The notes under the pieces: model-generated
What the model was told of the DNA's origin: nothing
The model's database searches: none
The model's input: the letters and a program-made list of their open reading frames with translations, nothing else
Shown here: positions 5,425 through 41,577 of the stretch, piece by piece
How the letters are laid out: each line of letters opens with the position of its first letter
Position numbering within the stretch: the stretch's first letter is position 1
Program-made: the position numbers and the translations under genes
Assembly: GCF_001557235.1 (NCBI RefSeq)
Contig: NZ_LSJI01000241.1
Location: forward strand, 1-53,886
From: Phenylobacterium sp. CCH9-H3
GTDB lineage: Bacteria; Pseudomonadota; Alphaproteobacteria; Caulobacterales; Caulobacteraceae
Direction: 5' to 3'
Length of the DNA: 53,886 nucleotides

Positions 5425-5452
5425 CGAGGGCCCGCCTGCGCCGGCGCGTATA
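5425..5452 (+). promoter_or_regulatory. Predicted CnrH-like ECF promoter (CGAGGG-N16-CGTATA)
   Basis: CGAGGG at 5425-5430 and CGTATA at 5447-5452 match the bipartite motif found in front of both CnrY-like genes, the cytochrome c gene and copA. The ATG of the next gene is only six bases beyond the -10 element, so transcription would begin at or next to the start codon, giving a leaderless mRNA. Confidence 0.6.
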
Positions 5453-5458
5453 CTCAGC

Positions 5459-6685
5459 ATGAGAGCCAGCGGTCTGTCCCGGCGGCGCGTGGCGGGTTGC
5501 CTGTGTTTGGCCGTCGCCACGCTGATCGCGACCCGGGGCCGGACCCGGCCTATCGCGTCAAGCTGCTCACACTGGCCCGTCGGTGTGCGGTTCGAGGCTG
5601 GAAGGCCCTCGTCCGGGTGGCTGCGCCTCGGGTCGCCATCGGACGAGCACGTCCGCGTCACAGCTTTCGTGCGAGGAGCGGCCCTGCCCGCGATCTTCGA
5701 TTCCGGGGCCACAGTCACAGTGATCGACCGCGCCTGGGCGCGATCCCTGGGCCTCTCTCTAAGAGACGGCTTCCACGCCCGAGGCCTGACGGGGCCGATG
5801 AGCGGACACTTCGCCGATGGCGTTTCGGTGCGCCTCGCCGCCGCGACGTTTGAACCGGTTACGGTCGGCGTCCTGGACCTCGACGCGCTCAAACTCTCAG
5901 CGCGACGGGACATTGCCCTGATCCTGGGTCAGGATCTTCTGGCCTCGGTGGTGGTCGAGATCGACGCCGCCAGCGGACGCGCAAACCTGCATGCCGCGCG
6001 CGCCAAGGACGCGCGCTGGCCTGGCAGGCTCGTGACCCTGCGTCGAGCCGAGTGCAGGCGTCACGTCTTGCCGCTCTCGATCGAGGGCCGGGATCCGATC
6101 GACGCGGTGCTGGATCTCGGCAGCTCCGTGCCCCTGTACCTGGCCCCGGAATACGCAAGAGCCCACCGCCTGCTGGCCGACCGGAAGACCTCCACGGCCT
6201 TGACCGCGGGCGGCGAAGGCCTCGAAGGGGGCGCCATCGCCACGCTGTCAGCCCTGCAGGTCGGCGGTGTGACGATACCGCAGGTGCCGGTCGTTGTGCC
6301 GGAGGCTTGGAACGAGCCCAGCCCTGCCCTGGTGGGTTGGCCCGTGCTCGGAAAGTTCCGGCTGTTCCTGGACCTCGCGCAGGATCGCCTCTGGCTGCAG
6401 CCTGAGCCCGGCGCGTTGCGAGTCCCGCTTCCCAAGGACCGATCGGGCCTCGGCATGGCGTGGATGGACGGTCGCCTCGTCATCGTCCATGTGGCGCGTG
6501 GCAGCCCGGCCGAGGCGATCGGACTGCGCGTCGGTGAGATCATCGCCGGCATCGACGGAACGCCCGTGGCGTTCGAGGATCCCCGGTTACGATCCCGCCT
6601 GGGCGCGCGAACCGCCGGCACGGCCTATCGGCTCGCAATGGCCGACGGCGGCGAGCGGCGGCTGGTTCTGGAGGACTACTATTGA
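5459..6685 (+). CDS. Exported retropepsin-like aspartyl protease/PDZ protein
   Basis: 408 aa from the ATG chosen here. The frame is open further upstream (GTG at 5333), but the N-terminus from 5459 has a basic SRRR patch and hydrophobic stretch like a signal peptide. Two aspartyl-protease-like lobes are visible: FDSGATVTVIDRAW (Asp81) and a second lobe with LDLGSSVPLYL (Asp219). A C-terminal PDZ-like domain follows (~residues 320-405, containing GSPAEAIGLRVGEIIAGIDG). The first lobe has the D-S/T-G-A catalytic triad form; the second has D-L-G-S, so only one lobe may be catalytic. It would act in the periplasm. Placement behind a predicted metal-responsive ECF promoter hints at an envelope-stress or metal role, which is inference. 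An alternative GTG start lies at 5489. Confidence 0.75.
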   Translation: MRASGLSRRRVAGCLCLAVATLIATRGRTRPIASSCSHWPVGVRFEAGRPSSGWLRLGSPSDEHVRVTAFVRGAALPAIFDSGATVTVIDRAWARSLGLSLRDGFHARGLTGPMSGHFADGVSVRLAAATFEPVTVGVLDLDALKLSARRDIALILGQDLLASVVVEIDAASGRANLHAARAKDARWPGRLVTLRRAECRRHVLPLSIEGRDPIDAVLDLGSSVPLYLAPEYARAHRLLADRKTSTALTAGGEGLEGGAIATLSALQVGGVTIPQVPVVVPEAWNEPSPALVGWPVLGKFRLFLDLAQDRLWLQPEPGALRVPLPKDRSGLGMAWMDGRLVIVHVARGSPAEAIGLRVGEIIAGIDGTPVAFEDPRLRSRLGARTAGTAYRLAMADGGERRLVLEDYY

Positions 6686-7022
6686 GCCAGGGGGTCGGGT
6701 TTTGAAGATTCCGTAGAAGAGCCTCCGCCACGACCTCGGCGATCCGGTTCAGGCGGCGGCTGCCGCGTGGTGGCGACAGAGATGGGTCGTCGCCTCGACG
6801 ACAAGGCCTAAGATGCGCCCGCGTGAAGAAACTGGGCGCTTTGAGCTACGGCGCGCGAAACCTAGGTCATCGCGCCGCGCGATCCACCGAACGGATCAGG
6901 CCCACCCGCTCGTGGTGGCGGGTCATCCTGGCGGTCATGCCGCAGGCGCGTTCCGCCGAACCGGCGCTCGTGCCGGGCCCGCCTCGAACGGCCAAGTCAC
7001 GGCCGCACGCGCGACGCCCTCA
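6686..7022. other. Intergenic region without a recognisable gene
   Basis: About 340 bases between the protease-like gene and the promoter of the orphan CnrY-like gene. Short open frames exist in several frames, but none has a convincing ribosome binding site, signal or known family pattern. I see no tRNA fold or terminator with a U-tract. Confidence 0.5.
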
Positions 7023-7051
7023 TGAGGGATGGGGTGGGAATCTCCCGTATA
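7023..7051 (+). promoter_or_regulatory. Predicted CnrH-like ECF promoter (TGAGGG-N17-CGTATA)
   Basis: TGAGGG (7023-7028), 17-bp spacer and CGTATA (7046-7051), identical in both elements and in spacing to the promoter in front of the complete CnrYXH-like operon. Transcription would start near 7058, about 19 bases before the ATG at 7077. Confidence 0.7.
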
Positions 7052-7076
7052 GAGAAGGGGCGAAGGACAGATCCCA

Positions 7077-7364
7077 ATGCGAATCGACCTGGACGACCTG
7101 ATGGCGCGCCTGCCGGTGGAGGCGCACGCCCTGGACGGGCTGGAGAATGCGGTGCTGCAGGGCATCGCCCGACGGCGGGAGGAGCTGCGGTGCGCCAAGG
7201 CGCTGGCGCCGGTTCGCGCCACCTCCGTCGGGCTGGCGCTCGCCATCGGCGTAGGCGCCGGCGGGCTGACCGCGGCCGCCGCGCTTGCCGAGCCGCAGCC
7301 GCTCAACTGCTTCTCCGCGGCGGCCCAGCTCGCCCCCTCCACCCTGTTGGCAGGGGCCGGGTAG
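7077..7364 (+). CDS. Orphan CnrY-like small membrane protein (putative anti-sigma)
   Basis: 95 aa. It aligns along its whole length with the 96-aa protein encoded at 16606-16896: shared LDD near the N-terminus, LDGLE, VL-x-G-(I/V)-A, a PVRA-led transmembrane helix (~residues 45-70) and the C-terminal FS...A-x-LAPSTLL-x-G-x-G tail. In CnrYXH systems such a one-helix protein binds the ECF sigma factor on the cytoplasmic side and the CnrX sensor on the periplasmic side. Here no CnrX or sigma gene follows; the next gene is convergent. RBS GAAGGACAG precedes the ATG. It probably modulates the single sigma factor at 15597-16172 in trans, which is inference. Confidence 0.72.
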   Translation: MRIDLDDLMARLPVEAHALDGLENAVLQGIARRREELRCAKALAPVRATSVGLALAIGVGAGGLTAAAALAEPQPLNCFSAAAQLAPSTLLAGAG

Positions 7365-7417
7365 TCTGGGGCGAGTGCAGCAGGCCACGCTGCGTCAGCG
7401 CGTGCTTTGCGCGCCAC

Positions 7418-7442
7418 CGCGCAGGGGCAGCATCCCTGCGCG
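7418..7442. terminator. Hairpin between convergent genes
   Basis: CGCGCAGGG (7418-7426) and CCCTGCGCG (7434-7442) pair perfectly over 9 bp around a 7-base loop. It lies between the orphan CnrY-like gene and the convergent cytochrome c gene. No U-tract. Confidence 0.4.
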
Positions 7443-7626
7443 CCTCCGACGCCTCGCGCCGTAACAGCCATACGGTCATTGTCGAGCGCGTGGCCGTGAC
7501 GCTTGCGGTGGTGGTCACCAGCCTCATGCCACTTCGGATCGGCCTCTCCCGGGACCGGCAGGGACTTCTGGCGAAGCAGCTGAGGACGCGCTCGACCTTG
7601 GTCGACGGCGCGTCAGCGAGGCCGCG

Positions 7627-8262
7627 TCAATGGGCGTGTCTCTCGTCGTGCCCGGCCTCGGCGGGCGGTGCTTCGTGGTGGGACATTCCGGGCATGCTCT
7701 GCATCATCTCATCGTGGCCGGCGGGCGCGCTCTGCACCATCGCCTGATACTGCGCCGGGGACAGGGAGGGGAGTTTGCGGACGAAGGCCACCATGTCCCA
7801 GATCAAGGCGTCGCCATGGGTGCGCCCCCACGCTGGCATGGCGGTCATTTTGACGCCGTGCTTGATCGTCCAGAACTGCGCACGGGGATCGCGTAGGTGA
7901 ACCCGGCTCAGCTGCGGCGCAGGCGGGTAGAGGCCCTGGCTGATCTCCGTCGGCGCCATCCCCGGCGCCAGATGGCAGCCGGCGCACATCTCGGCGTACA
8001 GCCCGGCCCCCCTGGCCAGCCGGGTGGGACTGCCAATGTCGGCCGGAAGCTGGACGCCCCTCGCCCGAACCTCGACGGATCGCTCGCGTAGGTTCTCGAT
8101 CGCCCAGTAGACTGGCCGTGTGTGCGGGGCGTCGGCTGCGATGTTGTAGACGCCGAGGTAGATGAAGGCCGCCGCCCCGACGGCGAGGACCGCCGCGGCG
8201 ATCCCCACGAACGCCAGGCTGGGCAGGTGGCGCCGAAGGAGAGAGGTTCCAGATTCCGCCAT
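7627..8262 (-). CDS. Membrane-anchored c-type cytochrome with His/Met-rich tail
   Basis: 211 aa. The start (ATG, plus bases 8260-8262) is chosen for its RBS (AGGAG-type) and because the anchor helix begins right after it (residues ~14-36). One class I heme site is visible: CAGCH at Cys93-His97, with a probable axial Met at 142 (TAMPAWG). The C-terminal 30 residues are rich in His and Met (SMPGMSHHE, HDERHAH), unusual for a plain electron carrier and suggestive of copper binding. The DNA upstream carries the predicted CnrH-like ECF promoter. Relatives are often called cytochrome c family proteins of copper clusters; the redox partner is unknown. It might feed electrons to or from the multicopper oxidases, but that is inference. 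Confidence 0.85.
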   Translation of the reverse strand: MAESGTSLLRRHLPSLAFVGIAAAVLAVGAAAFIYLGVYNIAADAPHTRPVYWAIENLRERSVEVRARGVQLPADIGSPTRLARGAGLYAEMCAGCHLAPGMAPTEISQGLYPPAPQLSRVHLRDPRAQFWTIKHGVKMTAMPAWGRTHGDALIWDMVAFVRKLPSLSPAQYQAMVQSAPAGHDEMMQSMPGMSHHEAPPAEAGHDERHAH

Positions 8263-8328
8263 CGCTCCGCTCCTGTCTTGCGGGCGAAACGGTGGGTCCC
8301 GCCGGTCGATATCAGAGTTCCTCAAGGG

Positions 8329-8357
8329 AATACGCGCGGCGAGCCCGCCTACCCTCA
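8329..8357 (-). promoter_or_regulatory. Predicted CnrH-like ECF promoter of the cytochrome c gene (TGAGGG-N17-CGTATT)
   Basis: On the minus strand, TGAGGG (plus 8352-8357), 17-bp spacer, CGTATT (plus 8329-8334). The 14-base stretch GCGCGTATTCCCTT around the -10 element is repeated exactly in front of copA (15554-15567). The 313-base gap to the divergent gene at 8576 otherwise shows nothing recognisable. Confidence 0.68.
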
Positions 8358-8575
8358 CCGCGTCGCTGCGGACGAAGCGGCCGGGTTTCCACGATGCGCG
8401 CTCCAGCGTCTCCGCGAGGGTCCCCGCCAACGATGCATCGGCGCTTGCATGAACGACAGGAGACCGCCGAAAGTCCTCCCGTCCGCCGAGATCATCGGAT
8501 ACCCGCCGGCCTGCAGGGGACGCCGGCCAGTCCTGGAATCTCGCCCTGCCGCCGTCGAACCCTCCACGAGACGCC

Positions 8576-11599: not shown

Positions 11600-11632
11600 C
11601 TCCGGCGAGGCGCCGAAAGAAGGAGACCCAGG

Positions 11633-12578: not shown

Positions 12579-13598
12579 TCAGAACCAGGCCCGAAGACCG
12601 ACCACGAAGCTCGTACTCCCTACATCCTCGCCCGCCGCGCGAGCGAAGTCGGCCGTCCGGCCGAGGCTCCGCTCGTAGGCGACGCCCACATAGGGCGCGA
12701 ACTCGCGGCGGATCTCGTAGCGCAGCCGGAGCCCCAGTTCCGCATGGGTGAATCCGGACCCCGTGCCGGTCCGGCGGATATCCTGGGCGGAGACCCCGAG
12801 CTCCGCCTGTGGCTGCAGGACCAGGCGCTGGGCCAGGCGCAGGTCATAGGTCCCCTCCAGCCGCCCCAGGAGATCCCCCTTGTCGGACAGGAACAGGGCC
12901 GCCTCCGCCTCGAACCAGTAGGGGAACAGGGTCTCCACCCCCACCGTAGCGTAGGTGCGCCGGCTCGGCTCGAAGTCTTGCCGAACGCCGAACTGCACGT
13001 CGGTGTAGCGGGCGACCGCGCGAGAATAGAGCGCCTGCACCTCGGCCGCTTCGACGCCGTCCGGCCGGCCGCCGTCCCCTTCGGTCTTGAGGACGAAGCG
13101 GTTGATGTCGCCGCCGTACCAGGCCTCGACATCCCAGCGGTAGCCGCCCTCGGGCTCGGACTTGTACTCGAGGAAGTTGCCCATGACCTTGGAGACGCGC
13201 GTCGCGCCATGCTCCGCCAGGATCACGCCGCGCGCCCGGTTCATGGCTCCGAGGTCGAACACCCGGTCGGCCGCATTGTCCGGCGGCGCAGGCGGGGGCG
13301 CCGCTGAGCCGACCGGCTGGTCGGCGCCGGTCATCCCGCCCGCAGCCATTCCGGGCATGACGTGGCCGGCGTGCGGGTCGGTCGCCGCCGCCGACGGCGG
13401 CGCAGCACCGTGCGCCGCGTGAGGGTCCGGGGGGCTCGGCACCGGCGGCGAGGCGGGCATGGCGTGCCCGGCGTGCGGATCGGCCGCGGGCTGGGCGGGC
13501 GCAGCCGCCCGATGGCCCGCGTGAGGATTCGGCGCCTGGGCCAGGACCGGCGTGGCGAGGGCGGCGGGCAGCAGGGTGATCAGGACGAGGCGCCTCAC
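12579..13598 (-). CDS. copB: CopB copper-resistance outer membrane protein
   Basis: 339 aa. The GTG start (plus 13596-13598) overlaps the copA stop (GTGA) and has GGAG seven bases upstream; a longer open frame exists upstream but lies inside copA. A signal peptide (LVLITLLPAALATPVLAQA) is followed by a His/Met-rich region with four PHA(G/A)H repeats and MPGMAAGGM, a likely copper-collecting segment. The C-terminal ~220 residues are the CopB beta-barrel domain (FDLGAMNRARGVIL; LRLRYEIRREFAPYVGV), ending in Phe. With CopA it sequesters or oxidises periplasmic copper. Confidence 0.93.
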   Translation of the reverse strand: MRRLVLITLLPAALATPVLAQAPNPHAGHRAAAPAQPAADPHAGHAMPASPPVPSPPDPHAAHGAAPPSAAATDPHAGHVMPGMAAGGMTGADQPVGSAAPPPAPPDNAADRVFDLGAMNRARGVILAEHGATRVSKVMGNFLEYKSEPEGGYRWDVEAWYGGDINRFVLKTEGDGGRPDGVEAAEVQALYSRAVARYTDVQFGVRQDFEPSRRTYATVGVETLFPYWFEAEAALFLSDKGDLLGRLEGTYDLRLAQRLVLQPQAELGVSAQDIRRTGTGSGFTHAELGLRLRYEIRREFAPYVGVAYERSLGRTADFARAAGEDVGSTSFVVGLRAWF

Positions 13599-15463
13599 GC
13601 CGCTTCTCCTTCCAACGGTCGCACCTTGAACACTTGGAACATGCCGCCATGCATGTGGTAGAGCATGTGGCAGTGGAACGCCCAGTCGCCGCTCTCGGCG
13701 GTGATGTCGAAGGACACCTTCCCGCCGGGTAGGACGTTCACGGTGTGCTTGCGCGGCAGATACCCTACCGGAGCGTGGACGAGTTCGAAGAAGTGCCCGT
13801 GCAGGTGGATCGGATGCGTCATCATGGTGTCGTTCACCAGGGTGACGCGCACCCGCTCGCCTTTGCGGAATGAATAGGGCGGCGGTTTCTCGCTGAACTT
13901 GCGGCCGTCGAACCCCCACATGAAGCGCTCCATGTTCCCCGTCAGGCGGATCTCGAGGGCGCGCTCGGGCGCCCGCGCGTCGGGGTTCGGCTCCAGCGCC
14001 ACCAGGTCCTTATAGACGAGGACCCGGTGGCCGACGCTCTCGAGGCCCTGCCCCGGATCGCCCGTCCGATCCATCGGCATGGGCGAAATCATCTGCACGC
14101 CCGGGCCCATCTTCACCTGCGGCGCGTTCTGTGGGTCGCGCATGTCCATGTCCATGCCGCCCATGTCCCCCATGACGTCCGATCCGCGTAGTCGCGGCGG
14201 CGCCGTGCCGGGGGGCGGGGCGCCTGCCGTCGCCGCCGCACCGGCCATGGCGCCATGGTCCATCCCGGGCATCTTGCTGTGGTCCATCGGCGTAGCCTTG
14301 CCGGCCGCGGCGCCGTTGCCGGCGTGGGCCGACATGTCCATGCCCATGTCCTTCATCGTCGCGAGCGGTCGTTCGCGCAGCGGCGGCAGGGCCGCCGTCA
14401 TGCCCGGACGCGGCGCCAGCGTGGCGCGCCCCATGCCGGACCGGTCCACAGCCTCGGAGACGATGGAGAAGGCGCGGTCCTCCAGCGGCTGGACGATGAC
14501 GTCATAGGTCTCGGCATTGCCGATCTGGAACTCGTCCACCTCCACCGGGCGGACGTTCTGGCCGTCTGCCGCCACCACGGTCATGCGCAGACCGGGGATC
14601 CGCACGTTGAAGATCATCTGCGCAGCGGCGTTGATGAACCGCAGCCGCACTCGCTCCCCGGGCTTGAAGAGCCCGGTCCAGTTCTCGTTAGGGCCATGGC
14701 CGTTGATGAGGAACTTCAGGACCGAGCCGGTGACGTCCGAGATGTCGGTGGGGTCCATCAGCATCTTGGCCCATTCGATGCGCTCAGCCAGCGTCTGGTC
14801 CTTGCCCGCGAGCAGGCCGGCGATGGTCTGTTTCTGGTAGTTGAACACCCCGCCCTGCTGCTTGAGCTTCTGGAAGATGCGGTGCGGATGCAGGAAGCTG
14901 AAGTCGGCCAGCACCAGCACGTGCTCGCGGTCGTACTGGACCGGGTCGGGCGCGGCCGGATCGATTATGATCGGGCCGTAGTGGCCCTGCGCTTCCTGCA
15001 GGCCCGAATGGCTGTGGTACCAGTAGGTCCCGGACTGGATCAGGGGAAATTCGTAGACGAAGGTCTCGCCCGGCGGGATGCCGGGGAAGCTCACGCCCGG
15101 GACGCCGTCCATCTCGAACGGCACGAGCAGCCCGTGCCAGTGGATGGAGGTGTCCTCATCCTTCAGCGCGTTGGTGACCGACAACCGGGCCTTCTGCCCC
15201 TCCTTCAAACGCAGGAGAGGTCCCGGCACCGTGCCGTTGATCGTGACGGCGTGCCCACGGCGCCCGTCCACCGTGAGCGAGCTGTGGCCGATGCTGAGCT
15301 TGATGTCGTCCCCGGAAAGGGTCGCCAGGGTAGGCGCGATCCCGGGACTGGCGCTGGCGGCCCAGCCGGGCAGCAGGGCGCTGAGGGCGGCCCCGCCGCC
15401 GAGCGCGGCGGCGCCATGCAGGAGCTGGCGGCGGTCAAGGTCGGGGACGGCGCGTCGACGCAT
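13595..15463 (-). CDS. copA: CopA multicopper oxidase, Tat-exported
   Basis: 622 aa. The start MRRRAV is chosen over an in-frame ATG at 15484 because AGGACAGG precedes it. A Tat-type signal is present (DRRQLLHGAAALGGG). Cupredoxin copper ligands are clear: IHWHGLL, YWYHSHSGLQ, HPIHLHGHFFEL and WAFHCHMLYHMHG. Between domains 2 and 3 lies a Met/His-rich loop (DHSKMPGMDHGAM, MGDMGGMDMDM) typical of plasmid-type CopA/PcoA. It oxidises Cu(I) in the periplasm. It sits directly downstream of the CnrYXH-like genes in the same direction but has its own predicted ECF promoter, and is coupled to copB by a GTGA overlap. Confidence 0.95.
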   Translation of the reverse strand: MRRRAVPDLDRRQLLHGAAALGGGAALSALLPGWAASASPGIAPTLATLSGDDIKLSIGHSSLTVDGRRGHAVTINGTVPGPLLRLKEGQKARLSVTNALKDEDTSIHWHGLLVPFEMDGVPGVSFPGIPPGETFVYEFPLIQSGTYWYHSHSGLQEAQGHYGPIIIDPAAPDPVQYDREHVLVLADFSFLHPHRIFQKLKQQGGVFNYQKQTIAGLLAGKDQTLAERIEWAKMLMDPTDISDVTGSVLKFLINGHGPNENWTGLFKPGERVRLRFINAAAQMIFNVRIPGLRMTVVAADGQNVRPVEVDEFQIGNAETYDVIVQPLEDRAFSIVSEAVDRSGMGRATLAPRPGMTAALPPLRERPLATMKDMGMDMSAHAGNGAAAGKATPMDHSKMPGMDHGAMAGAAATAGAPPPGTAPPRLRGSDVMGDMGGMDMDMRDPQNAPQVKMGPGVQMISPMPMDRTGDPGQGLESVGHRVLVYKDLVALEPNPDARAPERALEIRLTGNMERFMWGFDGRKFSEKPPPYSFRKGERVRVTLVNDTMMTHPIHLHGHFFELVHAPVGYLPRKHTVNVLPGGKVSFDITAESGDWAFHCHMLYHMHGGMFQVFKVRPLEGEAA

Positions 15464-15557: not shown

Positions 15558-15585
15558 AATACGCGCCCGCGCCTCGTTTCCCTCG
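15558..15585 (-). promoter_or_regulatory. Predicted CnrH-like ECF promoter of copAB (CGAGGG-N16-CGTATT)
   Basis: On the minus strand, CGAGGG (plus 15580-15585), 16-bp spacer, CGTATT (plus 15558-15563), in the 133-base gap between the sigma gene and copA. The -10 context GCGCGTATTCCCTT is identical to that of the cytochrome c gene. Confidence 0.65.
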
Positions 15586-15596: not shown

Positions 15597-16172
15597 CTAT
15601 TCGGGTTCCAGTCTGAGCAGTTCCGCCAGGCGATGGCGCGCGCGGTAAAGCCGGGTCTCCACCGCCTTGACGCTGATCCCCAGGAGCTCCGCCGCCTGCT
15701 GCTGGGAGAGTTCGCCGAAATAGGTGAGCAGGACCGGTTCCTTCAGCTTCGGCGGCAGCTTCGCGATCGACCGCTCGAGGGCCGCCAGCCGCTGGCCCTG
15801 CAACATGGACGACTCGGCGTCCGGCGACGGGTCCGGTTGGTGGCGGGCTTCCGGCGAGTCGGCGTCGCGGTCCGCGAACACCAGGCGGCGTACGGCGGCG
15901 CGCCGAGCGCGGTCGCGGCACTTGTTGAGCGCGATGGCCCGGATCCACACCCCGAAAGGGCGCGAAGGATCGTAGCGGCGTAGGGCGCGCCAGGCGGCGA
16001 CGAACGTCTCCTGGATCACTTCCACGGCCGGATCGCCGTCGCCCACGTAGCGCCGCACGAAGCCGTAGAGGCCGTTCTTGTGCCGGCGCACCAGCAGGCT
16101 GAAGGCCTGATCGTCGCCATCGACCGCCCGCGCCGCCAGCGCTGCGTCGCTGTCCCCGCTCGCCGGTCTCAC
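15597..16172 (-). CDS. CnrH-like ECF sigma factor
   Basis: 191 aa. Region 2 is visible at residues ~20-90 (VRRHKNGLYGFVRRYVGD; VIQETFVAAWRALRRYD; FGVWIRAIALNKCRDRAR). Region 4 lies at ~135-185 (LPPKLKEPVLLTYFGELSQQQAAELLGISVKAVETRLYRAR). It overlaps the sensor gene by four bases, giving the order anti-sigma, sensor, sigma as in cnrYXH of Cupriavidus. It should drive the NGAGGG-N16/17-CGTAT promoters listed here, including its own operon. The target-motif assignment is inference from co-occurrence. Confidence 0.9.
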   Translation of the reverse strand: MRPASGDSDAALAARAVDGDDQAFSLLVRRHKNGLYGFVRRYVGDGDPAVEVIQETFVAAWRALRRYDPSRPFGVWIRAIALNKCRDRARRAAVRRLVFADRDADSPEARHQPDPSPDAESSMLQGQRLAALERSIAKLPPKLKEPVLLTYFGELSQQQAAELLGISVKAVETRLYRARHRLAELLRLEPE

Positions 16173-16609
16173 GGGGCCTGGTCGGTGAGCGCCTCGCTGA
16201 TGCGGCGGTCGAACTTGGCCGCCTGGCTGGGCGTCAGGATCGTCCGCATCGCCAGGACATGAAGGATGGTTTCCTTCTGTAGTTCCCCCATGGCCACGTG
16301 GAAACGCTCGATGGCGGCCTGCACCTCCGGTGAGTATTCGTGGCGCGCCTGTATGGCGGCCGCGAGTTGGGCGTTGGCGGCGCGCAGCTCGGCCTCGCGA
16401 ACGCGGCGGCGCACGGCAAAGTCCTGCTCAATCGCCTGCAGCCGCGCCTCCTGCGCCTCGGAGAGGCTCAGCTCCCTATGCACGAACTCATGCAGCGAGG
16501 GCTGGCGGCGCTGTTCAAGAATGTAGCGGGCGCCGAGCCAGGTGCCGCCGGCGGCGGCGATCGCGGCCAGGACGAGCGTCAGGAGCAAGCCCCGGGTGAG
16601 GAGGCTCAT
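16169..16609 (-). CDS. CnrX-like periplasmic metal sensor
   Basis: 146 aa with an N-terminal membrane anchor (residues ~8-30) and an all-helical periplasmic domain. His40, His44, Glu61, His117 and Met121 line up, at a constant offset of two, with the CnrX metal ligands (His42, His46, Glu63, His119, Met123) as I recall them. The surrounding motif MGELQKETILHVLAMR is also CnrX-like. In the known system, metal binding makes CnrX release the membrane anti-sigma CnrY. The conserved ligand set is that of a Ni/Co sensor, whereas the gene neighbourhood is copper; the inducing metal is open. It overlaps the flanking genes by four bases each. Confidence 0.88.
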   Translation of the reverse strand: MSLLTRGLLLTLVLAAIAAAGGTWLGARYILEQRRQPSLHEFVHRELSLSEAQEARLQAIEQDFAVRRRVREAELRAANAQLAAAIQARHEYSPEVQAAIERFHVAMGELQKETILHVLAMRTILTPSQAAKFDRRISEALTDQAP

Positions 16610-16896
16610 CCGGGGCCGTCGAGCAGCGTGGACGGGGCGAGGTGGGCATGGACGGAGAAGGCTGAGATTTCCGCCTCGCCGGCCGTGGCTGTGGCGGCGA
16701 AGCCCCCGCCCGCGAGCCCCAGGCCCAGGGCCACCATCACGGCGGCCGCGCGGACGGGCACGAACACGCTGGCGGCGGCCCGCGCTTCCCGCACGGCGGC
16801 GACGCCTCTGAGGACATCGGCCTCGAGCCCGTCGAGGTTCGTCTCCGGCGGCGCGGCTCTCAGTTGATTCAGGTAGTCGTCTAGCTTCGGGCTCAT
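16606..16896 (-). CDS. CnrY-like membrane anti-sigma factor
   Basis: 96 aa. A short cytoplasmic N-terminal part (DDYLNQLRA...LDGLEADVLRGVAAVRE) would mask the sigma factor. One transmembrane helix follows (~residues 45-68), then a short periplasmic tail (FSVHAHLAPSTLL). Size, topology and position as first gene of a YXH trio support the call; sequence similarity across CnrY proteins is generally low. The ORF at 7077-7364 is its paralogue. AAGGTGAGG precedes the ATG. Confidence 0.8.
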   Translation of the reverse strand: MSPKLDDYLNQLRAAPPETNLDGLEADVLRGVAAVREARAAASVFVPVRAAAVMVALGLGLAGGGFAATATAGEAEISAFSVHAHLAPSTLLDGPG

Positions 16897-16926: not shown

Positions 16927-16955
16927 TATACGTATTAGAGGCGCCCTGCCCCTCA
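16927..16955 (-). promoter_or_regulatory. Predicted autoregulated ECF promoter of the cnrYXH-like operon (TGAGGG-N17-CGTATA)
   Basis: On the minus strand, TGAGGG (plus 16950-16955), 17-bp spacer, CGTATA (plus 16927-16932). Transcription would start near 16920, about 24 bases before the anti-sigma ATG. Confidence 0.7.
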
Positions 16956-16957: not shown

Positions 16958-16985
16958 AGAGGGGTCGGCTCCGGCGGCGCGTACT
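16958..16985 (+). promoter_or_regulatory. Possible divergent ECF promoter (AGAGGG-N16-CGTACT)
   Basis: AGAGGG (16958-16963), 16-bp spacer, CGTACT (16980-16985). Its -35 lies back to back with that of the cnrY promoter in a CCCTCAAAAGAGGG dyad. It faces the DUF411 gene at 17109. The -10 deviates by one base from the other copies; the dyad could also act as an operator or hairpin. Confidence 0.4.
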
Positions 16986-17108: not shown

Positions 17109-17591
17109 ATGCGTTCAACCTACCGCCCACCTCCGGGCCCTCACCGCCGCCGTCTGCTCTTGGGCGCCGCGTCCCTGCTGCTCGCCGCCGGCTGCGCCCA
17201 GGCGGCGCCCGCCCGTGAGCTGGTTGTGTTCAAGACGCCCTACTGCGGCTGCTGCAACGGGTGGATCACGCACATGCGTCGCGCCGGGTTCAACCCCGTG
17301 GTGCGGGTGGTGGATGACCTCAACCCGGTCCGCGCCCAGTACGGCGTGCCGTTCAAGCTGTCGTCATGCCACACGGCGGTGGCGGGAGGATACGTGATCG
17401 AGGGGCACGTCCCGCCGGCCGATGTCGCCCGGCTCCTGGCCGAGAAGCCGAACGCGGTCGGCCTCACCGTCCCGGGCATGCCCATTGGTTCGCCGGGCAT
17501 GGAAAGCCCCTCGGGCGAAATGGAGCGGTTCGCGACGCTTCTGCTGCTGGACCGGGCAGGCCGAACGCGGGTGTTCGCCCACCACGGTTGA
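17109..17591 (+). CDS. DUF411 metal-binding exported protein
   Basis: 160 aa. The start at 17109 is preferred to an ATG at 17091 because AAGAGG is six bases upstream. The N-terminus (HRRRLLLGAASLLLAAGC) reads as a signal peptide with a possible lipobox Cys. The DUF411 signature is clear: VFKTPYCGCCNGWITHM, then a conserved VPFKLSSCHTAVAGGYVIEGHVP. The CxCC-type cysteines and the later Cys are candidate metal thiols. The family is widespread in copper and silver resistance clusters; a periplasmic metal-binding role is generally assumed, not proven. Confidence 0.9.
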   Translation: MRSTYRPPPGPHRRRLLLGAASLLLAAGCAQAAPARELVVFKTPYCGCCNGWITHMRRAGFNPVVRVVDDLNPVRAQYGVPFKLSSCHTAVAGGYVIEGHVPPADVARLLAEKPNAVGLTVPGMPIGSPGMESPSGEMERFATLLLLDRAGRTRVFAHHG

Positions 17592-18654: not shown

Positions 18655-18682
18655 TGAGGGATGCGTTCCGCGCGCGCGTATC
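18655..18682 (+). promoter_or_regulatory. Possible ECF promoter facing the copper ATPase gene (TGAGGG-N16-CGTATC)
   Basis: TGAGGG (18655-18660), 16-bp spacer, CGTATC (18677-18682). It would give a transcript starting near 18689, upstream of the CueR promoter of the ATPase gene, i.e. a second, sigma-dependent input to the same operon. Confidence 0.45.
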
Positions 18683-18772: not shown

Positions 18773-18799
18773 AAATGCGCGGCTGCGCCAACGAAGACC

Positions 18800-18830
18800 T
18801 TGACCTTCCCATCATGGGAAGGTGCATCTG
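18800..18830 (+). promoter_or_regulatory. CueR-type copper promoter of the copper ATPase gene
   Basis: TTGACC (18800-18805), a 19-bp spacer, CATCTG (18825-18830). Between 18803 and 18823 the arms ACCTTCCCAT and ATGGGAAGGT form a perfect dyad around a central C. Long spacer plus this dyad are characteristic of CueR/MerR Cu(I) activation. Confidence 0.93.
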
Positions 18831-18861: not shown

Positions 18862-21383
<2,522 letters not shown>

Positions 21384-21387
<4 letters not shown>

Positions 21388-21815
21388 ACATCGGACGCGC
21401 CGCCAAGGCTTCCGGCGTCTCGGCGAAGATGATCCGCTACTACGACGACATCGGCCTGGTGCGGCCGGCTAGCCGCACCGGTTCGAACTACCGCGAGTAC
21501 GATGAGCGGCGGGTCAACGAGCTGCGGTTCATCAAGCGGGCCCGCGCGCTGGGCTTCTCCGTTCCGGAGATCGAGCATCTGCTCTCGCTGTGGCGCGACC
21601 GGGAGCGTCCCAGCCGCCAGGTCAAGGCCATCGCCGACCGCCATGTGGCGGATCTCGACGCCCGCATTGCCGAGATGCAGGCCATGGCCGACACGCTCCG
21701 GCACCTGTCGAGCTGCTGCGCCGGGGATGACCGCCCGGACTGCCCGATCCTCGCGGACCTCACCGGCGGCGCCGAACCGGCCGAACCGGCGGCCACGGCG
21801 CACCGGCGACGCTGA
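21384..21815 (+). CDS. cueR: CueR-type MerR-family Cu(I) regulator
   Basis: 143 aa. Winged-helix MerR DNA-binding domain at residues 1-70 ([29 protein letters not shown]), a dimerisation helix, and the metal loop near residues 112-123 with CAGDDRPDC, the CueR C-X7-C pair that binds Cu(I) or Ag(I) linearly. It overlaps the ATPase gene by four bases and so is autoregulated with it through the CueR promoter at 18800-18830. It should also act at the copZ promoter. Confidence 0.94.
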
Positions 21816-21877: not shown

Positions 21878-21958
21878 GGCGCGGGGTGACGGGTCAGCTG
21901 TGCGTATCCCCCACAGGCGTCCACTTGCGCCGGACCTAGAGAAGCAGGAGAAAGTGCG

Positions 21959-22276
21959 ATGCGGAACATCATGCGGACGACCGGCCTGGCCTTCGGTCTC
22001 GGCCTCGCGCTCGCGGCGTGCCAGAGACAGGAGGCGCAAGCCCCGGCCGAGGCGGTCCCGGCGCCGCCGGACGCCCCCTCGGCGGCGGCCACGACGCCCG
22101 CCGGATCCGACGCCACAAACCCGGCCGTCGCCCCGGTGGCGCCTTCGACCTCGACGGCCCGGGCGCCTGCCAAGTCCGAGCCGCCCAAGCGGGCCACCGA
22201 GCCCGCCGCGGCGGACCACACAGACATGCCCGGCATGGACCATTCGAAGATGGAGGGCATGGATTCCAAGAAGTGA
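21959..22276 (+). CDS. Small lipoprotein with Met/His-rich C-terminus
   Basis: 105 aa. A lipobox (LALAAC, Cys20) and a low-complexity Pro/Ala linker lead to a C-terminal copper-like motif (DHTDMPGMDHSKMEGMD). AGGAG lies eight bases before the ATG. It follows the cueR terminator hairpin; a CGTATC element at 21903 has only a weak -35 partner, so its promoter is unclear. Probably an envelope copper-binding protein; I recognise no named family. Confidence 0.8.
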   Translation: MRNIMRTTGLAFGLGLALAACQRQEAQAPAEAVPAPPDAPSAAATTPAGSDATNPAVAPVAPSTSTARAPAKSEPPKRATEPAAADHTDMPGMDHSKMEGMDSKK

Positions 22277-24535: not shown

Positions 24536-25225
24536 CTAGGCGGGCGCCCGCAACGCCCATGCCTTACCCCGAAGGCCACCCGAGGAAAACGGCCGCCAGA
24601 CGAGGTAGAGCGACATCAGCGCGCCGCCGAAACAGAAGACCGAGATGTAGGCGTACTGGAAGAATAGGTAGGTGGCCACGAAGACCAGGGCCACCAGCAC
24701 CCCGAATACCCGCGCGTCCTTGTCGGTGCTCAGCAGTAGCGGCCCGATGACCACGAAGAGGTAGATCGCATAGGTGAATTCGCGGCCGATCACATAGTCG
24801 AGGAGCGCCTTGCCCTCGTAGCTGATCGCGGCGCCCAGGAACCGGGTGGCGAGCCACCCCTCATGGGCGAAGTAAGGCACATACTGCAGCCCGCCGAGCA
24901 TCCCGCCGGCGACGGCCAGCAGGAGGTAGACCGGCCGCCGCCGCCCCGGCTCCAGGAAGTAGACCGAGAACGGCACCCACACCGGCCAGGCGAGCCAGGA
25001 GAAGAACAGGTAGGCGAGCGAGAAGCGCTCCACGACCGCGGCGTCGCCGGCCGCGCCGAAGCGCCAGACGAACCCCTCCATGAGCTGCTGGGCGGCGAAC
25101 AGCACCGGAAGGGCGGACAGCGCCAGATAGCGGCGATCCCCGCGCCAGGCCCGCGCCAAGCTGACCGCGCCGAGCGGCGCCAGGACACCCGCCGCCGTGA
25201 AGCTCGCCGCCGCCGAGAAGCACAT
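24536..25225 (-). CDS. DUF6629-like polytopic membrane protein
   Basis: 229 aa with about seven hydrophobic segments. The start MCFSAAASF is chosen because that opening is the recognisable hallmark of the family; an open frame continues upstream. A conserved-looking AQQLMEGFVW motif lies at residues ~45-55. Function unknown. It is divergent from the acetate kinase gene. Confidence 0.7.
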   Translation of the reverse strand: MCFSAAASFTAAGVLAPLGAVSLARAWRGDRRYLALSALPVLFAAQQLMEGFVWRFGAAGDAAVVERFSLAYLFFSWLAWPVWVPFSVYFLEPGRRRPVYLLLAVAGGMLGGLQYVPYFAHEGWLATRFLGAAISYEGKALLDYVIGREFTYAIYLFVVIGPLLLSTDKDARVFGVLVALVFVATYLFFQYAYISVFCFGGALMSLYLVWRPFSSGGLRGKAWALRAPA

Positions 25226-25317
25226 GCCACATATCCCCAAGCCCAACGGGCTTCCACGCTGGAGCGCCCGCCCATAGATGGATACGCTTAGCCGATGCCA
25301 CGCCCTCGTCCCAGACC

Positions 25318-26505: not shown

Positions 26506-26597
26506 GCCCCGGCCCTGCGGCGCACGGCCGCGCCGCCGCCGCGTAAGCCGCCGCGGCGTGCTGCGTCTTCAGCACGATCTCGCGCACAGGACCTCAC

Positions 26598-28981: not shown

Positions 28982-29069
28982 CGCCACCCGATCGTAACCC
29001 CCCACGGCGCGCGCGCGTCCTGGAAGCCGAGGGCCAGGTACGCTCCTCCGCGCGAGGGATGCAGAGTTC

Positions 29070-32978: not shown

Positions 32979-33054
32979 ACATCGGCGTAAGGCCGGCGCT
33001 CGCGCTGCGTCAGTCCCCCCGAGCGCCGAACCGGCGCAGCACAGGAGAAGCGAT

Positions 33055-37207: not shown

Positions 37208-37293
37208 CGCTTCCTCGCCTGGCGGTGGCCGACCCTGGTGTCGACGGGGACGGTCCGGCCGCTTGCGCAAGAGACGCGCGTCGCGGCGGCCGC

Positions 37294-38049
37294 TTACGAC
37301 AGACGCGCCAGGGAGCCTCTGGATTCCGGCCGCCTGCTGCCGGGCGCCCGGACCAGCGCGGCCTTCTCGGCGTCGATGATGGCCTCGGCCTGGCGCGCGA
37401 ACTCGGCGGCCGGCAGGCCGGGAGCGATCGGCGGCAGAATGGAGACTGTGATCACGCCGGGCGCCTTTTCCCGCCGCCGCCAGAACCGCCCGGCGTCCAG
37501 GGCGATCGGCAGGACCGGGACGCCGAGCGTCCGGTAGAGGAGCTCGACGCCGCGCTTGAACCTGACGGGCTCGTCCACCGGCCTGCGGGTCCCCTCGGGG
37601 AAGATCAGGATGGAGCGGCCGTCCGCCAGGGCGGCCCGGCTCATGGCGGTCATCTCGCGCAGGGCCTTGCCGCCCTCCTCCCGGTCGATGACGATCATCG
37701 GCGAGCGGTTCAGGTACCAGCCCATAACCGGGATCCGCAGCAGTTCGCGCTTGGCGACGATGGCCACGTCGGGAAAGAGCGCCAGCACCGCGATCGTCTC
37801 CCAGGTGGACTGGTGGTTGGCGACGATCAGGCACGGCTCGTCCGGAGTGTTGGTCGCGCCCCGCACCCTGTGCCGCACCCCCGCGATCACGCCGAGGATG
37901 GCGAGGACCCCGCGCGCCCAGACGCGGGAGAGCCCCCGCACCGTTCTGGGCGGGGAGCCTACGAGCCAGAGCAGGGGAATCGCCAGGCCGAAGAGCGCCG
38001 TCCACGCCGCCCACAGGCTATCGAAGGCCAGCGACCGCAGGGCTCGCAT
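37294..38049 (-). CDS. plsC: 1-acyl-sn-glycerol-3-phosphate acyltransferase family protein
   Basis: 251 aa from ATG with GGAGG six bases upstream. An N-terminal hydrophobic hairpin is followed by acyltransferase motif I NHQSTWE (His-x4-acid), motif II/III IDREEGGKAL and FPEGTRRPVDEP, and VPVLPIALDAG. It acylates lysophosphatidate in the inner membrane during phospholipid synthesis. It lies 86 bases before ppsA in the same direction. Confidence 0.9.
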   Translation of the reverse strand: MRALRSLAFDSLWAAWTALFGLAIPLLWLVGSPPRTVRGLSRVWARGVLAILGVIAGVRHRVRGATNTPDEPCLIVANHQSTWETIAVLALFPDVAIVAKRELLRIPVMGWYLNRSPMIVIDREEGGKALREMTAMSRAALADGRSILIFPEGTRRPVDEPVRFKRGVELLYRTLGVPVLPIALDAGRFWRRREKAPGVITVSILPPIAPGLPAAEFARQAEAIIDAEKAALVRAPGSRRPESRGSLARLS

Positions 38050-38338: not shown

Positions 38339-39523
38339 CTAGGCCGATGTGGCGAGCGGCGCCGTCCCTTCGTTGAGGATGTCGAGGTAGGCGCGGTAGG
38401 CATAGACACGCCCGCGCCGCCGGCCGGTCACTTCCTGCACGATCCCGAGCCGCGCGAGGTCGGCGAGCGCCGCGTTGACGGTGGGGGCGGTGAGGCCCGT
38501 ACGCTGCACCAGAGCCGTGGAGGTGGCGTACGGATTTCCCTGAAGCAGGTCATGGATCCGTAGCGCGGATCCTGCGCGGTCGCTCTCGGCGGTGATCCTG
38601 TCACGGTCTCGCTTGAAGATTTCGACAATCCGTGTCGCAGCATCGAAGGCCTGGTTGGCGATCTCCGCGACGCCATCCAGGAAAAACTCCAGCCACGCTT
38701 CCCAGGCGCCCCGTTCGCGCACCTCCTGCAGGAGACGGTAGTAGTCGGCGCGATGCGTCTTCAGATAGAGGCTGAGGTAGAGTAGCGGCTTGCGCAGGAC
38801 GTCCTCCACGCAGAGGTAGAGGGTCACGAGCAGGCGGCCGATGCGGCCGTTCCCATCCAGGAACGGATGGATGCTCTCGAACTGGACGTGGAGTAAGCCG
38901 GCCTTGATCAAGGGTGGCAGCCGCGATTCCTCCTCGTGCAGAAAGCGTTCGAAGGCGTCGAGGCAAGCGTCTAGTTCATCCATGGGCGGCGGCACGTACA
39001 CGGCGTTGCCAGGCCGTGTCCCGCCGATCCAGTTCTGAGACCGACGGAACTCGCCTGGGTTCTTCGTGCCGCCGCGGCCGCTCTGCAGCAGGCGTTCGTG
39101 CATTTCCCGGATCAAGCGGAGCGACAGCGGAAGGGCGGCGAGCCTCTCAAGGCCATACATCATCGCGTCGACGTAGTTCGACACCTCGCGGATGTCGTCG
39201 AGCGGTTGCCCCGCCTGGGCCTCCGTTTCGAAACGCAGGAGATCGGACAGGGTCGATTGGGTGCCCTCGATTTGTGAGGAGAGCACAGCCTCCTTTCGAA
39301 CATACATGTACAGAAACAGCTCTTGGCGCGGGAGGAGCACAGTGATGCCATCCAGGCGTCCCAAGGCGCGTTCGGCGGCGCTCAGCTTGGGCAGCAAGGG
39401 CAGGATATCGATGGAAGGCTCTGGCGGGAGCGGCGGCGGGACAAAGGCCCGGACCTGTTCACCGGCTGCGACGGTTTCCACGAACCGGCCAAGGCGCGGA
39501 TTGGCAGTCTGTGCGGTGCTCAT
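38339..39523 (-). CDS. Fic family protein with N-terminal Fic_N and C-terminal winged helix
   Basis: 394 aa. N-terminal Fic_N region (PPEPSIDILPLLPKLSAAERALGRLDG) contains the inhibitory-helix-like SSQIEGTQS (S-x-x-x-E-G), then the catalytic FIC motif HPFLDGNGRIGR from His219, and a C-terminal winged helix (LVQRTGLTAPTVNAALADLARLGIV). Such enzymes transfer AMP from ATP onto target proteins; the S/T-x-x-x-E-G motif holds them off. The C-terminal domain often binds the gene's own operator. The region upstream is AT-rich with repeats (see 39558-39600), unlike the GC-rich neighbours. Confidence 0.93.
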   Translation of the reverse strand: MSTAQTANPRLGRFVETVAAGEQVRAFVPPPLPPEPSIDILPLLPKLSAAERALGRLDGITVLLPRQELFLYMYVRKEAVLSSQIEGTQSTLSDLLRFETEAQAGQPLDDIREVSNYVDAMMYGLERLAALPLSLRLIREMHERLLQSGRGGTKNPGEFRRSQNWIGGTRPGNAVYVPPPMDELDACLDAFERFLHEEESRLPPLIKAGLLHVQFESIHPFLDGNGRIGRLLVTLYLCVEDVLRKPLLYLSLYLKTHRADYYRLLQEVRERGAWEAWLEFFLDGVAEIANQAFDAATRIVEIFKRDRDRITAESDRAGSALRIHDLLQGNPYATSTALVQRTGLTAPTVNAALADLARLGIVQEVTGRRRGRVYAYRAYLDILNEGTAPLATSA

Positions 39524-39845
39524 GCGGAACTCTCGCTCTATTTTAGCGATGTCGATTTCGCTTTAATAAGTCGGCAGCGTCTTAAAGCGAGCTTTATTAG
39601 CCCCGTGAGCGGCGAACCGAGGCCATCGCTTCGAGCGGCGCTATTAAAATGCGACCCGCTCCACTTCAACGAGTAGCGCGCTAAGGAAAGCGGTCTTTAT
39701 CAACCAACAGGACACCGGCTGTGGCCCGCATCCAACCCGGTCGTTCGGCGGCCGGACAGATGAGCCGCGGCCTTCGCGTGGCCGGCGTCCGTAATCGATC
39801 CCCGTCGCCCGCGTCACGGCAGGGAACGCGATTGAAGAGGCGCAT
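39524..39845. other. AT-richer intergenic region with inverted and direct repeats
   Basis: This 322-base gap is the least GC-rich stretch of the window. TCGCTTTAA (39558-39566) and TTAAAGCGA (39582-39590) are exact inverted repeats 15 bases apart, and GCTTTAATAAG (39560-39570) recurs nearly as GCTTTATTAG (39591-39600). Variants CTATTTTAGCGA and GCTATTAAAATGCG lie at ~39536 and ~39641. It probably holds the fic promoter and its operators. No gene is visible. Confidence 0.55.
39558..39590. promoter_or_regulatory. Putative operator of the fic gene (inverted repeat)
   Basis: TCGCTTTAA-N15-TTAAAGCGA, centred ~50 bases upstream of the fic start. Position and symmetry suit binding by a winged-helix dimer, perhaps the Fic protein's own C-terminal domain. 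Confidence 0.45.
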
Positions 39846-41435
39846 GTGATCATCCTCCGTGCCTTTCGGATCGGCGGGGCCGCGGCATGCCTGTTGTGGG
39901 CGGCCGCGGCCGAGCGCCTCCGTCCGGGCGCGGGGCCTGGGTTTCCGGTGCGGCTGCGGCGGACCCTGGAGCGGCTGGGCCCGACCTTCGTCAAGCTCGG
40001 CCAGGCGCTGAGCCAGCGGCGGGACCTGCTGCCGGACCGGTGGACTTCGGAGCTGTCCAGGCTGCAGGCGGACGCCCGCCCGTTTGCGGCGGAGACGGCG
40101 GCTGCGGCCGTGCAGGCGGCCCTCGGAGCGCCAGCCCACGACCTCTTCGAAAGCTTCGACCCGTCCCCCCTGGCCGCGGCCTCGGTGGCGCAGGTGCACA
40201 GGGCCCGGCTGCACGACGGCCGCGAGGTGGTCGTCAAGATCCTGCGCCCTGGGGTTCGGACCCAAATCGACCGGGACATGCGCATCCTGCTCGGGGTGGC
40301 GGCGTTCGCCGGCGCGACTGTTCCGGCGTTGCGCCGCCGCCGGACCACCGCCCTGGTGCGGGAACTGTGGCGGAACCTTCGCCGCGAAACCGACCTGCGG
40401 GAGGAGGCGCGCAACATCCGCCGCTTCGCGCGGGCGTTCGAGGGTTCGCCCACGGTGTTCATCCCGGACGTGGTCGAAGACCTGAGCGCGGAGGGGGTGC
40501 TCGTCCAGGTGATGAGCCACGGCCGCGACATCTCGGACCCGTCCCTGGCGGCCCAGGCGGGCGCGCTCTCCCGGGCCTTCGTCGACTTCTACCTGCAACA
40601 GTTCTTCGTGCTGGGCGTCTTCCACGCCGACCCGCACCCTGGGAACATCTTCGTCATGGCCGACGGGCGGCTCTGCTTCCACGACTTCGGCGCGGTCGGC
40701 GTGCTCGATGCTCGCTCACGCCGGGCGCTCCTGGCCTTCCTGCAGGCCTTCGCGGCGCAGGACCCGGAATGGCTGACGGACGCGGCCGTGGACCTGGGCC
40801 TGCTCTCCCTGACCGCCGACCGCCAGGACATCGCGCGCGGCGTGGAAGCGGTTCTGGCCGACCTCACCGGGGCGCCGCTCAAGGACTGGTCGATCGCCAG
40901 CGTCATGATGAGCATTGCACGCTTGGGCGGCGGCGACACCCTGGCGCTGCCGCCGCACCTGGCCGCCCTGGTGCGCACGGTGTTCACCGCCGAGGGCGCG
41001 CTGCGCACCCTCGACCCCGACCTGGACGTGACGCGCACCCTCAGCGAGAGCGGTGAGGCCCTGATGGTCAAAGGCGGGCTCGCCGATGGGGCGGGCGACG
41101 ACCTGCGCCGGCTGAAATGGGAAACGGCCCTAGCCGCCCGGGGTCTCCCCGCCGCCGCCGCGCGGATGCTGCACGGCGCCGGCAAGGGCGGCGGTTTTCC
41201 ACTCGCCTTTCCGGATCTGCGGGCGGCCGCCAGCCGGCTCGGCCGCGCCGCCGACCGCATCGCCATCGCCCTGGTGACGCTGGGTCTCTACGTCGCCGCC
41301 TCGCTGCTCATGCAGCACAGCATCGGCCCCCGCATCTTCGGGGACCTCCCCCTCCTCGCCGGCGTCGGCTATGGCCTCGCCCTCTGGTTCACCTGGCGGC
41401 TCGTGCGGAGCATCGATCGCACCGACGGCCTCTGA
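39846..41435 (+). CDS. UbiB/AarF (ABC1) family atypical kinase
   Basis: 529 aa; GTG start with GAAGAGG five bases upstream. Kinase-like motifs of the family: GPTFVKLGQALSQRRDLLP (KxGQ), AAASVAQVHRARLHDGREVVVKILRPGV (Ala-rich loop and invariant Lys), EARNIRRFA, FHADPHPGNIFVM and HDFGAVG. Two C-terminal transmembrane helices (~residues 470-515) match UbiB. It supports ubiquinone biosynthesis, as an ATPase/kinase-like factor. It may be an accessory homologue rather than the housekeeping ubiB. Confidence 0.9.
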   Translation: MIILRAFRIGGAAACLLWAAAAERLRPGAGPGFPVRLRRTLERLGPTFVKLGQALSQRRDLLPDRWTSELSRLQADARPFAAETAAAAVQAALGAPAHDLFESFDPSPLAAASVAQVHRARLHDGREVVVKILRPGVRTQIDRDMRILLGVAAFAGATVPALRRRRTTALVRELWRNLRRETDLREEARNIRRFARAFEGSPTVFIPDVVEDLSAEGVLVQVMSHGRDISDPSLAAQAGALSRAFVDFYLQQFFVLGVFHADPHPGNIFVMADGRLCFHDFGAVGVLDARSRRALLAFLQAFAAQDPEWLTDAAVDLGLLSLTADRQDIARGVEAVLADLTGAPLKDWSIASVMMSIARLGGGDTLALPPHLAALVRTVFTAEGALRTLDPDLDVTRTLSESGEALMVKGGLADGAGDDLRRLKWETALAARGLPAAAARMLHGAGKGGGFPLAFPDLRAAASRLGRAADRIAIALVTLGLYVAASLLMQHSIGPRIFGDLPLLAGVGYGLALWFTWRLVRSIDRTDGL

Positions 41436-41549
41436 CCCGGACGGCATCGGCCAGGCGGCGCGCGACCGAGCCGTCCTACGGGCGCCGCCACGCCGCCGCG
41501 GGGACCTCTCCGAGCGCCGCGGACCGCCCGCCAGAGCGAATGGACCCGC

Positions 41550-41577
41550 TATACGCACCAGATGTCACAATCCCTCA
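41550..41577 (-). promoter_or_regulatory. ECF-type promoter match pointing into ubiB antisense (TGAGGG-N16-CGTATA)
   Basis: On the minus strand, TGAGGG (plus 41572-41577), 16-bp spacer, CGTATA (plus 41550-41555), both elements identical to the cnrY-type promoters. No minus-strand gene follows; the transcript would run antisense to the end of the UbiB-family gene. It may be chance or an antisense RNA start. Confidence 0.3.

Follow-up and report, generated by a model that had tools for sequence, protein, structure and literature searches.

Which sigma factor transcribes the copper genes of the Phenylobacterium sp. CCH9-H3 contig NZ_LSJI01000241.1, and by which promoter are these genes connected? 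The stretch analyzed here (hereafter the window; 53,886 nucleotides, assembly GCF_001557235.1) contains cusB, cusA, cusF, copAB, a copper ATPase gene together with a gene for a MerR-family regulator, a DUF411 gene and other copper-linked genes. A first-pass annotation had proposed that two short elements, GAGGG and CGTAT, separated by 16 or 17 bases (N16/17), mark a CnrH-like sigma regulon over these genes. According to our analysis it is very likely that GAGGG-N16/17-CGTAT represents the -35 and -10 elements of the CnrH-type extracytoplasmic function (ECF) sigma factor encoded at 15597-16172, which would control a copper-linked regulon upon release by metal.

In the window, whose GC content is 71%, eight exact copies of the motif were detected compared to 0.09 expected, and 100 dinucleotide shuffles yielded one copy at most, by which a chance origin was rejected. 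The spacing is fixed, since no exact pair of the two elements occurred in the window at gaps of 8-15 or 18-30 bases. In a ranking of all 5-mer pairs with five or more occurrences at N16/17, GAGGG/CGTAT had the lowest P value. Genes were called by a small script trained on the sigma loci described below, the start positions being approximate. All eight exact sites avoid called genes (random 0.12 per site; binomial P 4e-8), and seven have a same-strand gene start at most 300 bases from the predicted transcription start (random 0.06; binomial P 2e-8), the actual distances being 19-173 bases. The placement upstream of genes reported by the first-pass annotation was thereby recovered, as were its three sites with N17 and five with N16 and the 14-base context GCGCGTATTCCCTT common to the sites at 8330 and 15559. 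Its site list was right to one base, seven entries matching the exact form one base inside the given ends, whereas 16959-16983 on the plus strand ends with CGTAC. An exact site at 25282-25307 (minus strand) was missing from that list, and the minus strand of the 41551 site was not indicated.

The motif is conserved at the sigma loci of other bacteria. One scan for relatives of the sigma factor was performed; at least 225 were confirmed, and the loci of the best 80 were used, several of them being near-identical. The two elements occurred there 108 times at N16 and 38 times at N17, compared to 0-5 occurrences for any other spacing between 6 and 31. An exact site lies somewhere in 70 of the 80 loci; with both strands considered, 44 loci possess one in the interval 550-1000 bases upstream of the sigma gene, and in 63 a site within one mismatch is found at this distance on the sigma strand. 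Recurrent positions are before cnrY, divergent from cnrY and just behind the sigma gene. Of the 146 sites, 133 avoid called genes and 106 are followed by a gene start no more than 300 bases away. Counting identical contexts once gave 119 sites, 108 of them outside genes and 86 of those before a start, the coding share of this DNA being 89%. A spaced-tetramer count ranked this pair first as well (42-43 of 63 deduplicated upstream regions versus 2/58 in the background). The flanking bases show a preference for T or C before GAGGG and for G or A before CGTAT, which gave the extended motif [TC]GAGGG-N16/17-[GA]CGTAT. Genes under the motif in the loci and the window, named by inspection and from the Pfam hits of the window with identical-context sites counted once, comprise 23 CnrY-like genes, 21 multicopper oxidases, 20 CopC-like genes and 11 acyltransferases (several near-identical), followed by five DUF411, five TolC-like, four copper ATPase, three MerR-like and three CusF-like genes and smaller groups.

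Genome-wide searches were carried out in ten relatives that had been reached through the sigma loci and were chosen for having the sigma factor; they contained 100 exact sites, of which 95 distinct ones were examined. The first-pass annotation had named equal frequency of the motif inside genes as a refuting outcome; this did not occur for the extended motif in these relatives, as 57 of the 68 extended sites are located outside genes and 49 have a start within 300 bases. By contrast, only 3 of the 27 non-extended sites lie outside genes and six have a start, which is chance-like. Scanning of the 49 downstream proteins revealed five multicopper oxidases, five CopC proteins, four P-type ATPases, four acyltransferases, three DUF411 proteins, two outer-membrane efflux proteins and one CopD, and about ten more are CnrY-like by eye. 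At the level of the family, a CnrH-type sigma factor is present in 97 of 199 sampled genomes (E 1e-30). Counting only the form with G before CGTAT, so that sites with another base there are left out, 352 sites occur in the 97 sigma-positive genomes (3.63 per genome) and 152 in the 102 others (1.49 per genome; P 8e-12), while an off-spacing control showed no enrichment (126 or 1.30 per genome versus 174 or 1.71). The association between sigma factor and motif persisted after removal of six genomes already used (P 1.4e-10).

The sigma gene is the last of three genes in the order Y-X-H. A profile of 20 sigma relatives found CnrH (4cxf) as the best of 32 PDB sequences, with 136.7 bits versus 105.5 for the next one, and the window sigma is ~39% identical to CnrH. 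The neighboring sensor matched NccX/CnrX at about 2e-17 and retains, in the alignment, the CnrX columns H42, H46, E63, H119 and M123 (a site of three His, Glu and Met). All five columns are kept in 63 of 72 distinct sensors (79 adjoining the sigma gene in the 80 loci, plus that of the window). Of the nine deviating sensors, eight differ at one to three of these columns and the ninth is gapped. The sensors of loci L053, L057 and L058 carry Y instead of H119 and I or V instead of M123, and that of L058 additionally Q for H46, perhaps reflecting an altered metal preference. The first gene of the operon fits a small membrane anti-sigma factor of the CnrY type by its position and by alignment with the CnrY-like proteins of four related operons. 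The motif stands in front of this operon, as suggested earlier for autoregulation, and its position there is conserved among the sigma loci.

A direct comparison is possible with the cnr promoters of plasmid pMOL28. Here, cnrCp reads GAGGG-N17-CGTAT and is identical to the motif, and cnrYp (AAGGG-N17-CGTAT) is one base off; the first-pass annotation had named a CGTATA-like -10 element for Cupriavidus, and both promoters contain CGTAT. According to PMC9045368, transcription starts were mapped by primer extension at 24 and 25 bases ahead of the respective cnr genes. Since CGTAT ends 32 (cnrC) and 31 (cnrY) bases before the ATG, these published starts are situated about 7-8 bases behind CGTAT. 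On a second Cupriavidus plasmid (sp. USMAA2-4), an exact GAGGG-N17-CGTAT precedes both the yxh operon and the genes for efflux. Plasmids of Sphingobium, Sphingopyxis and Caulobacter carry further copies within copper clusters; an Asticcacaulis stretch contains the CGTAC form only, and no exact copy was detected before copA or the yxh operon of either C. henricii or Caulobacter FWC26. The proposal of a CnrH-like sigma regulon over copper genes is supported by the best PDB match, the NccX/CnrX-type partner and the pMOL28 promoters.

Taken together, a model can be suggested in which the CnrY-type anti-sigma factor, along with the CnrX-type periplasmic sensor, would retain the resting sigma factor at the membrane. 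Binding of a metal to the sensor, most likely copper, would free the sigma factor, which would then start transcription about 7-8 bases after CGTAT. It would thereby transcribe the operon in which it is encoded, the DUF411 gene divergent from this operon, copAB and the copper ATPase gene (alongside a CueR-type regulator). Four further targets would be the genes for the cytochrome c rich in His and Met, the aspartyl protease of the periplasm, the membrane protein with DUF6629 and the CnrY-type anti-sigma factor that stands alone. The features are compiled in Table 1.

Table 1. Predicted promoters, genes and boxes of the putative CnrH-type regulon and of the second ECF locus in the window
Feature	Position	Strand	Remark
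Three-gene operon Y-X-H	15597-16896	-	96-amino-acid CnrY-like protein, CnrX-like sensor, ECF sigma factor
CnrH-type ECF sigma factor, 191 amino acids	15597-16172	-	Pfam Sigma70_r2/r4; profile match to CnrH 4cxf
CnrX-type periplasmic metal sensor	16169-16609	-	Pfam Metal_resist; NccX/CnrX match
CnrY-type small anti-sigma factor	16606-16896	-	Operon position and alignment
yxh operon promoter, GAGGG-N17-CGTAT	16928-16954	-	Predicted start 24 bases before gene; position conserved in sigma loci
copAB promoter, GAGGG-N16-CGTAT	15559-15584	-	Same spot behind sigma gene in many relatives
copA multicopper oxidase	13595-15463	-	TIGR01480; gene call
copB	12579-13598	-	Pfam CopB; gene call
Divergent promoter variant toward DUF411 gene, GAGGG-N16-CGTAC	16959-16983	+	Exact motif in five relatives
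DUF411 protein	17109-17591	+	Pfam PF04214; gene call
Copper ATPase promoter, GAGGG-N16-CGTAT	18656-18681	+	Both elements kept in P. zucineum pHLK1
Palindromic box before ATPase	18797-18823	+	Conserved in pHLK1
Copper P-type ATPase	18862-21387	+	Family profile matches
MerR-family regulator after ATPase	21384-21815		Family profile matches
Aspartyl protease promoter, GAGGG-N16-CGTAT	5426-5451	+	Exact motif
Secreted aspartyl protease with PDZ domain	5459-6685	+	Pfam; translation
Solo anti-sigma promoter, GAGGG-N17-CGTAT	7024-7050	+	Exact motif
Solo CnrY-type anti-sigma factor	7077-7364	+	Similarity to CnrY-like protein of C. henricii pCB4
Cytochrome c promoter, GAGGG-N17-CGTAT	8330-8356	-	Exact motif
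Membrane-anchored cytochrome c, His/Met-rich end	7627-8262	-	Pfam Cytochrome_CBB3; sequence
DUF6629 gene promoter, GAGGG-N16-CGTAT	25282-25307	-	Exact motif; pHLK1 copy with N17
DUF6629 membrane protein	24536-25225	-	Pfam; gene call
Conserved orphan CnrH-type promoter, GAGGG-N16-CGTAT	41551-41576	-	Present at 11/14 second-ECF copies
Second ECF gene	41681-42331	+	Orphan promoter points away from gene
CGTAA-N16/17-GCGTC copies	26542-26567, 28993-29019, 32986-33011, 39790-39815, 42509-42534	+	Dyad count
CGTAA-N16/17-GCGTC copy	37273-37298	-	Dyad count

Several observations weigh against this assignment. Ten of the 80 sigma loci lack an exact site, and in six of these a copy with one mismatch upstream of the operon is missing as well. 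In the form searched for in the family, no site was found in 7 of the 97 sigma-positive genomes and fewer than four in 62, while 8 of the 102 sigma-negative genomes contain at least four. The CnrY-like proteins had no Pfam, NCBIfam or convincing PDB match, and the 41551 site drives no recognisable gene. Finally, the sensor has preserved the nickel/cobalt ligand set, so that copper can be taken only as the probable signal.

Among the alternative explanations, the one that holds up best concerns the solo CnrY-type gene. It is quite possible that this gene is a mere remnant of a second cnrYXH operon and plays no role. Its product is closest to a CnrY-like protein of another lineage (58% identity to that of C. 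henricii pCB4, about 44% to the window's own), and it is the sole one of 91 Y-like matches without an adjoining X, in a set that favors whole operons and counts some places twice. On the other hand, the gene has an intact frame, an exact promoter and both conserved blocks, and no remnant of X or H was found beside it. The solo gene could instead be a brake under the control of the sigma factor itself, by which additional negative feedback would be exerted.

Less probable, and in our view rather unlikely, is that promoter and sigma factor are correctly assigned but respond to cobalt, nickel or general periplasmic metal stress instead of copper. The complete set of CnrX ligands in the window sensor and in most of the other sensors is in line with this. 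However, it is copper genes that the motif precedes, in the window as well as in the relatives, and no nickel/cobalt efflux gene, a trait of CnrYX, was found under the motif in the window, where copper genes and others are the targets. The gene content therefore suggests a copper variant of the CnrH system and copper as the inducing signal.

That the motif is used by the second ECF sigma factor of the window (41681-42331) is very improbable. A motif copy stands before the second ECF gene, and the Phenylobacterium zucineum plasmid pHLK1 carries motif sites and the second ECF gene without a CnrH-type sigma factor. P. zucineum (G160), though, possesses a CnrH-type sigma factor on contig 2, outside pHLK1, and the second ECF gene was found in only 10 of the 199 family genomes, each of these ten possessing a CnrH-type sigma factor too. 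Moreover, second-ECF loci carry a different spaced pair, CGTAA-N16/17-GCGTC. This pair occurs six times in the window versus 0.08 expected (dyad count), five copies being outside genes and all six before a same-strand gene, and eight times in 80.5 kb of second-ECF loci (plus four at N18), compared to three times in the 80 CnrH-type loci (1.4 Mb). Judged by this distribution, it is probably the promoter of the second ECF sigma factor itself, which argues against GAGGG/CGTAT in this function. Least credible is a dispersed repeat or the binding site of a repressor or activator, which the 14 bases common to two copies might indicate, but the spacer is variable with only the two elements kept, the halves lie at promoter distance and the Cupriavidus copies are located just before mapped starts.

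Among plasmids, the copper island of P. zucineum pHLK1 is the closest match of the window's 13-18 kb part, and pHLK1 contains five motif sites; a CnrH-type sigma gene was not found on the plasmid, where an IS3 element occupies the position of the window's sigma operon (L116, NC_011143.1, 15153-17798). The 18656 and 25282 sites are kept in pHLK1 despite diverged surroundings, the latter with a gap of N17 instead of N16, both elements preserved and one A for G before CGTAT. With the sigma gene on contig 2, the plasmid promoters would be served from another replicon.

Transcription from the 41551 site would run away from the second ECF gene and enter a UbiB-type gene of the opposite strand at its 3' end. 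It had been listed as weaker or unexplained; it is conserved, yet drives no recognisable gene. The arrangement was found in the window, twice each in P. zucineum (with CGTAA) and in the genomes G003 and G156, and once each in the genomes G001, G016, G184 and G189. One G003 copy has CGTAC and the other lies, by its coordinates, beside a gene fragment; those of G001, G016, G184 and G189 are near-identical. At the second-ECF copies of G169, G074 and G099 the site is absent. Downstream of the site the sequence is not conserved, and no conserved product was apparent there in six aligned copies. A regulatory antisense or small RNA is a possible product of this promoter, although Rfam gave no hit anywhere in the window at gathering scores. 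Between the orphan site and the second ECF gene, all six aligned sequences contain a TTGAY-N4-ATCAA box (TTGAT-N4-ATCAA at 41611-41624 in the window), which we take to be FNR/FixK-like. It is a tentative possibility that the copper island unites a CnrH-type sigma factor rewired to copper with an unchanged nickel/cobalt-type site, a scattered regulon spanning replicons, a sensor-free second anti-sigma factor of its own as a brake, and a conserved non-coding or antisense transcript wiring two ECF circuits.

Compared to known systems, the window most resembles CnrYXH of C. metallidurans CH34 (pMOL28; nickel/cobalt resistance), with which it shares the Y-X-H order, homologous sigma factor and sensor, the sensor ligands, the GAGGG or AAGGG-N17-CGTAT promoter and, judged by sequence, an autoregulated operon with a downstream target. 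In contrast to CH34, the targets in the window are copper genes across several operons, N16 is commoner and a solo anti-sigma factor is present. The nickel-type yxh system of Cupriavidus sp. USMAA2-4 (annotated as CnrY/NccY family) has the exact motif before operon and efflux genes as well, but drives an operon of resistance-nodulation-division efflux and no cop genes. SigF-NrsF of Caulobacter crescentus likewise governs an ECF regulon within the Caulobacterales, and metals, copper among them, induce it (PMC8224329, PMC3511200); membership was ruled out since the window sites differ in both elements from its promoter GTAACC-N16-CGAA (PMC3511200), and its targets are others. CorE of Myxococcus xanthus is also an ECF sigma factor for copper homeostasis (PMC8999054), but it senses metal by a C-terminal extension of the sigma factor itself and no CnrYX-type pair is involved. 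A CorE-type copper sigma factor (ECF44/ECF238) was ruled out, the 191-amino-acid window sigma consisting of regions 2 and 4 only, with region 4 ending at 182. SigAb-AabA-AabB of Acinetobacter includes a small CnrY-like anti-sigma factor predicted to wrap the sigma factor; its regulon is different, and no CnrX-type sensor is reported in the available section of PMC12153292. A published description of a CnrH-type copper sigma factor in this bacterial group was not found among the open-licence papers listed in our searches, and no ECF group number for CnrH was found in the texts consulted. While the promoter class is already known, the copper regulon and its extent, the solo anti-sigma factor and the conserved orphan promoter beside the second ECF gene are additions. 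For a sigma factor with only a generic annotation, whose type occurs in nearly half of the sampled family genomes, a concrete promoter is now available from which the regulon can be predicted. CnrH promoter specificity appears to have been kept between betaproteobacterial nickel/cobalt resistance and alphaproteobacterial copper clusters while the targets changed, which raises the direct question of how a sensor with the same five ligands serves a copper regulon.

Two further copies regarded before as weaker or unexplained can be accounted for. The 16959 site would serve as divergent promoter of the DUF411 gene, the exact motif lying ahead of the DUF411 homologue in L013, L017, L018, L019 and L047. 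The 18656 site precedes the copper ATPase gene and is conserved in P. zucineum; as a conserved palindrome, presumably a CueR-type box, also lies there, the ATPase gene is probably subject to two inputs. For the protease gene the caller chose 5585 as start, while the in-frame ATG at 5459 is the 8th base after CGTAT and opens a signal-peptide-like stretch, so the message may be leaderless. The protein contains two protease-like stretches and a PDZ domain; no homologue was found among the sigma loci compared, and its targets could be the anti-sigma factor or damaged envelope proteins. Behind the MerR gene, a one-mismatch copy (GCGGG-N17-GCGTAT, 21881-21907, plus strand) was noticed, whose predicted start is 44 bases before a gene for 105 amino acids (21959-22276).

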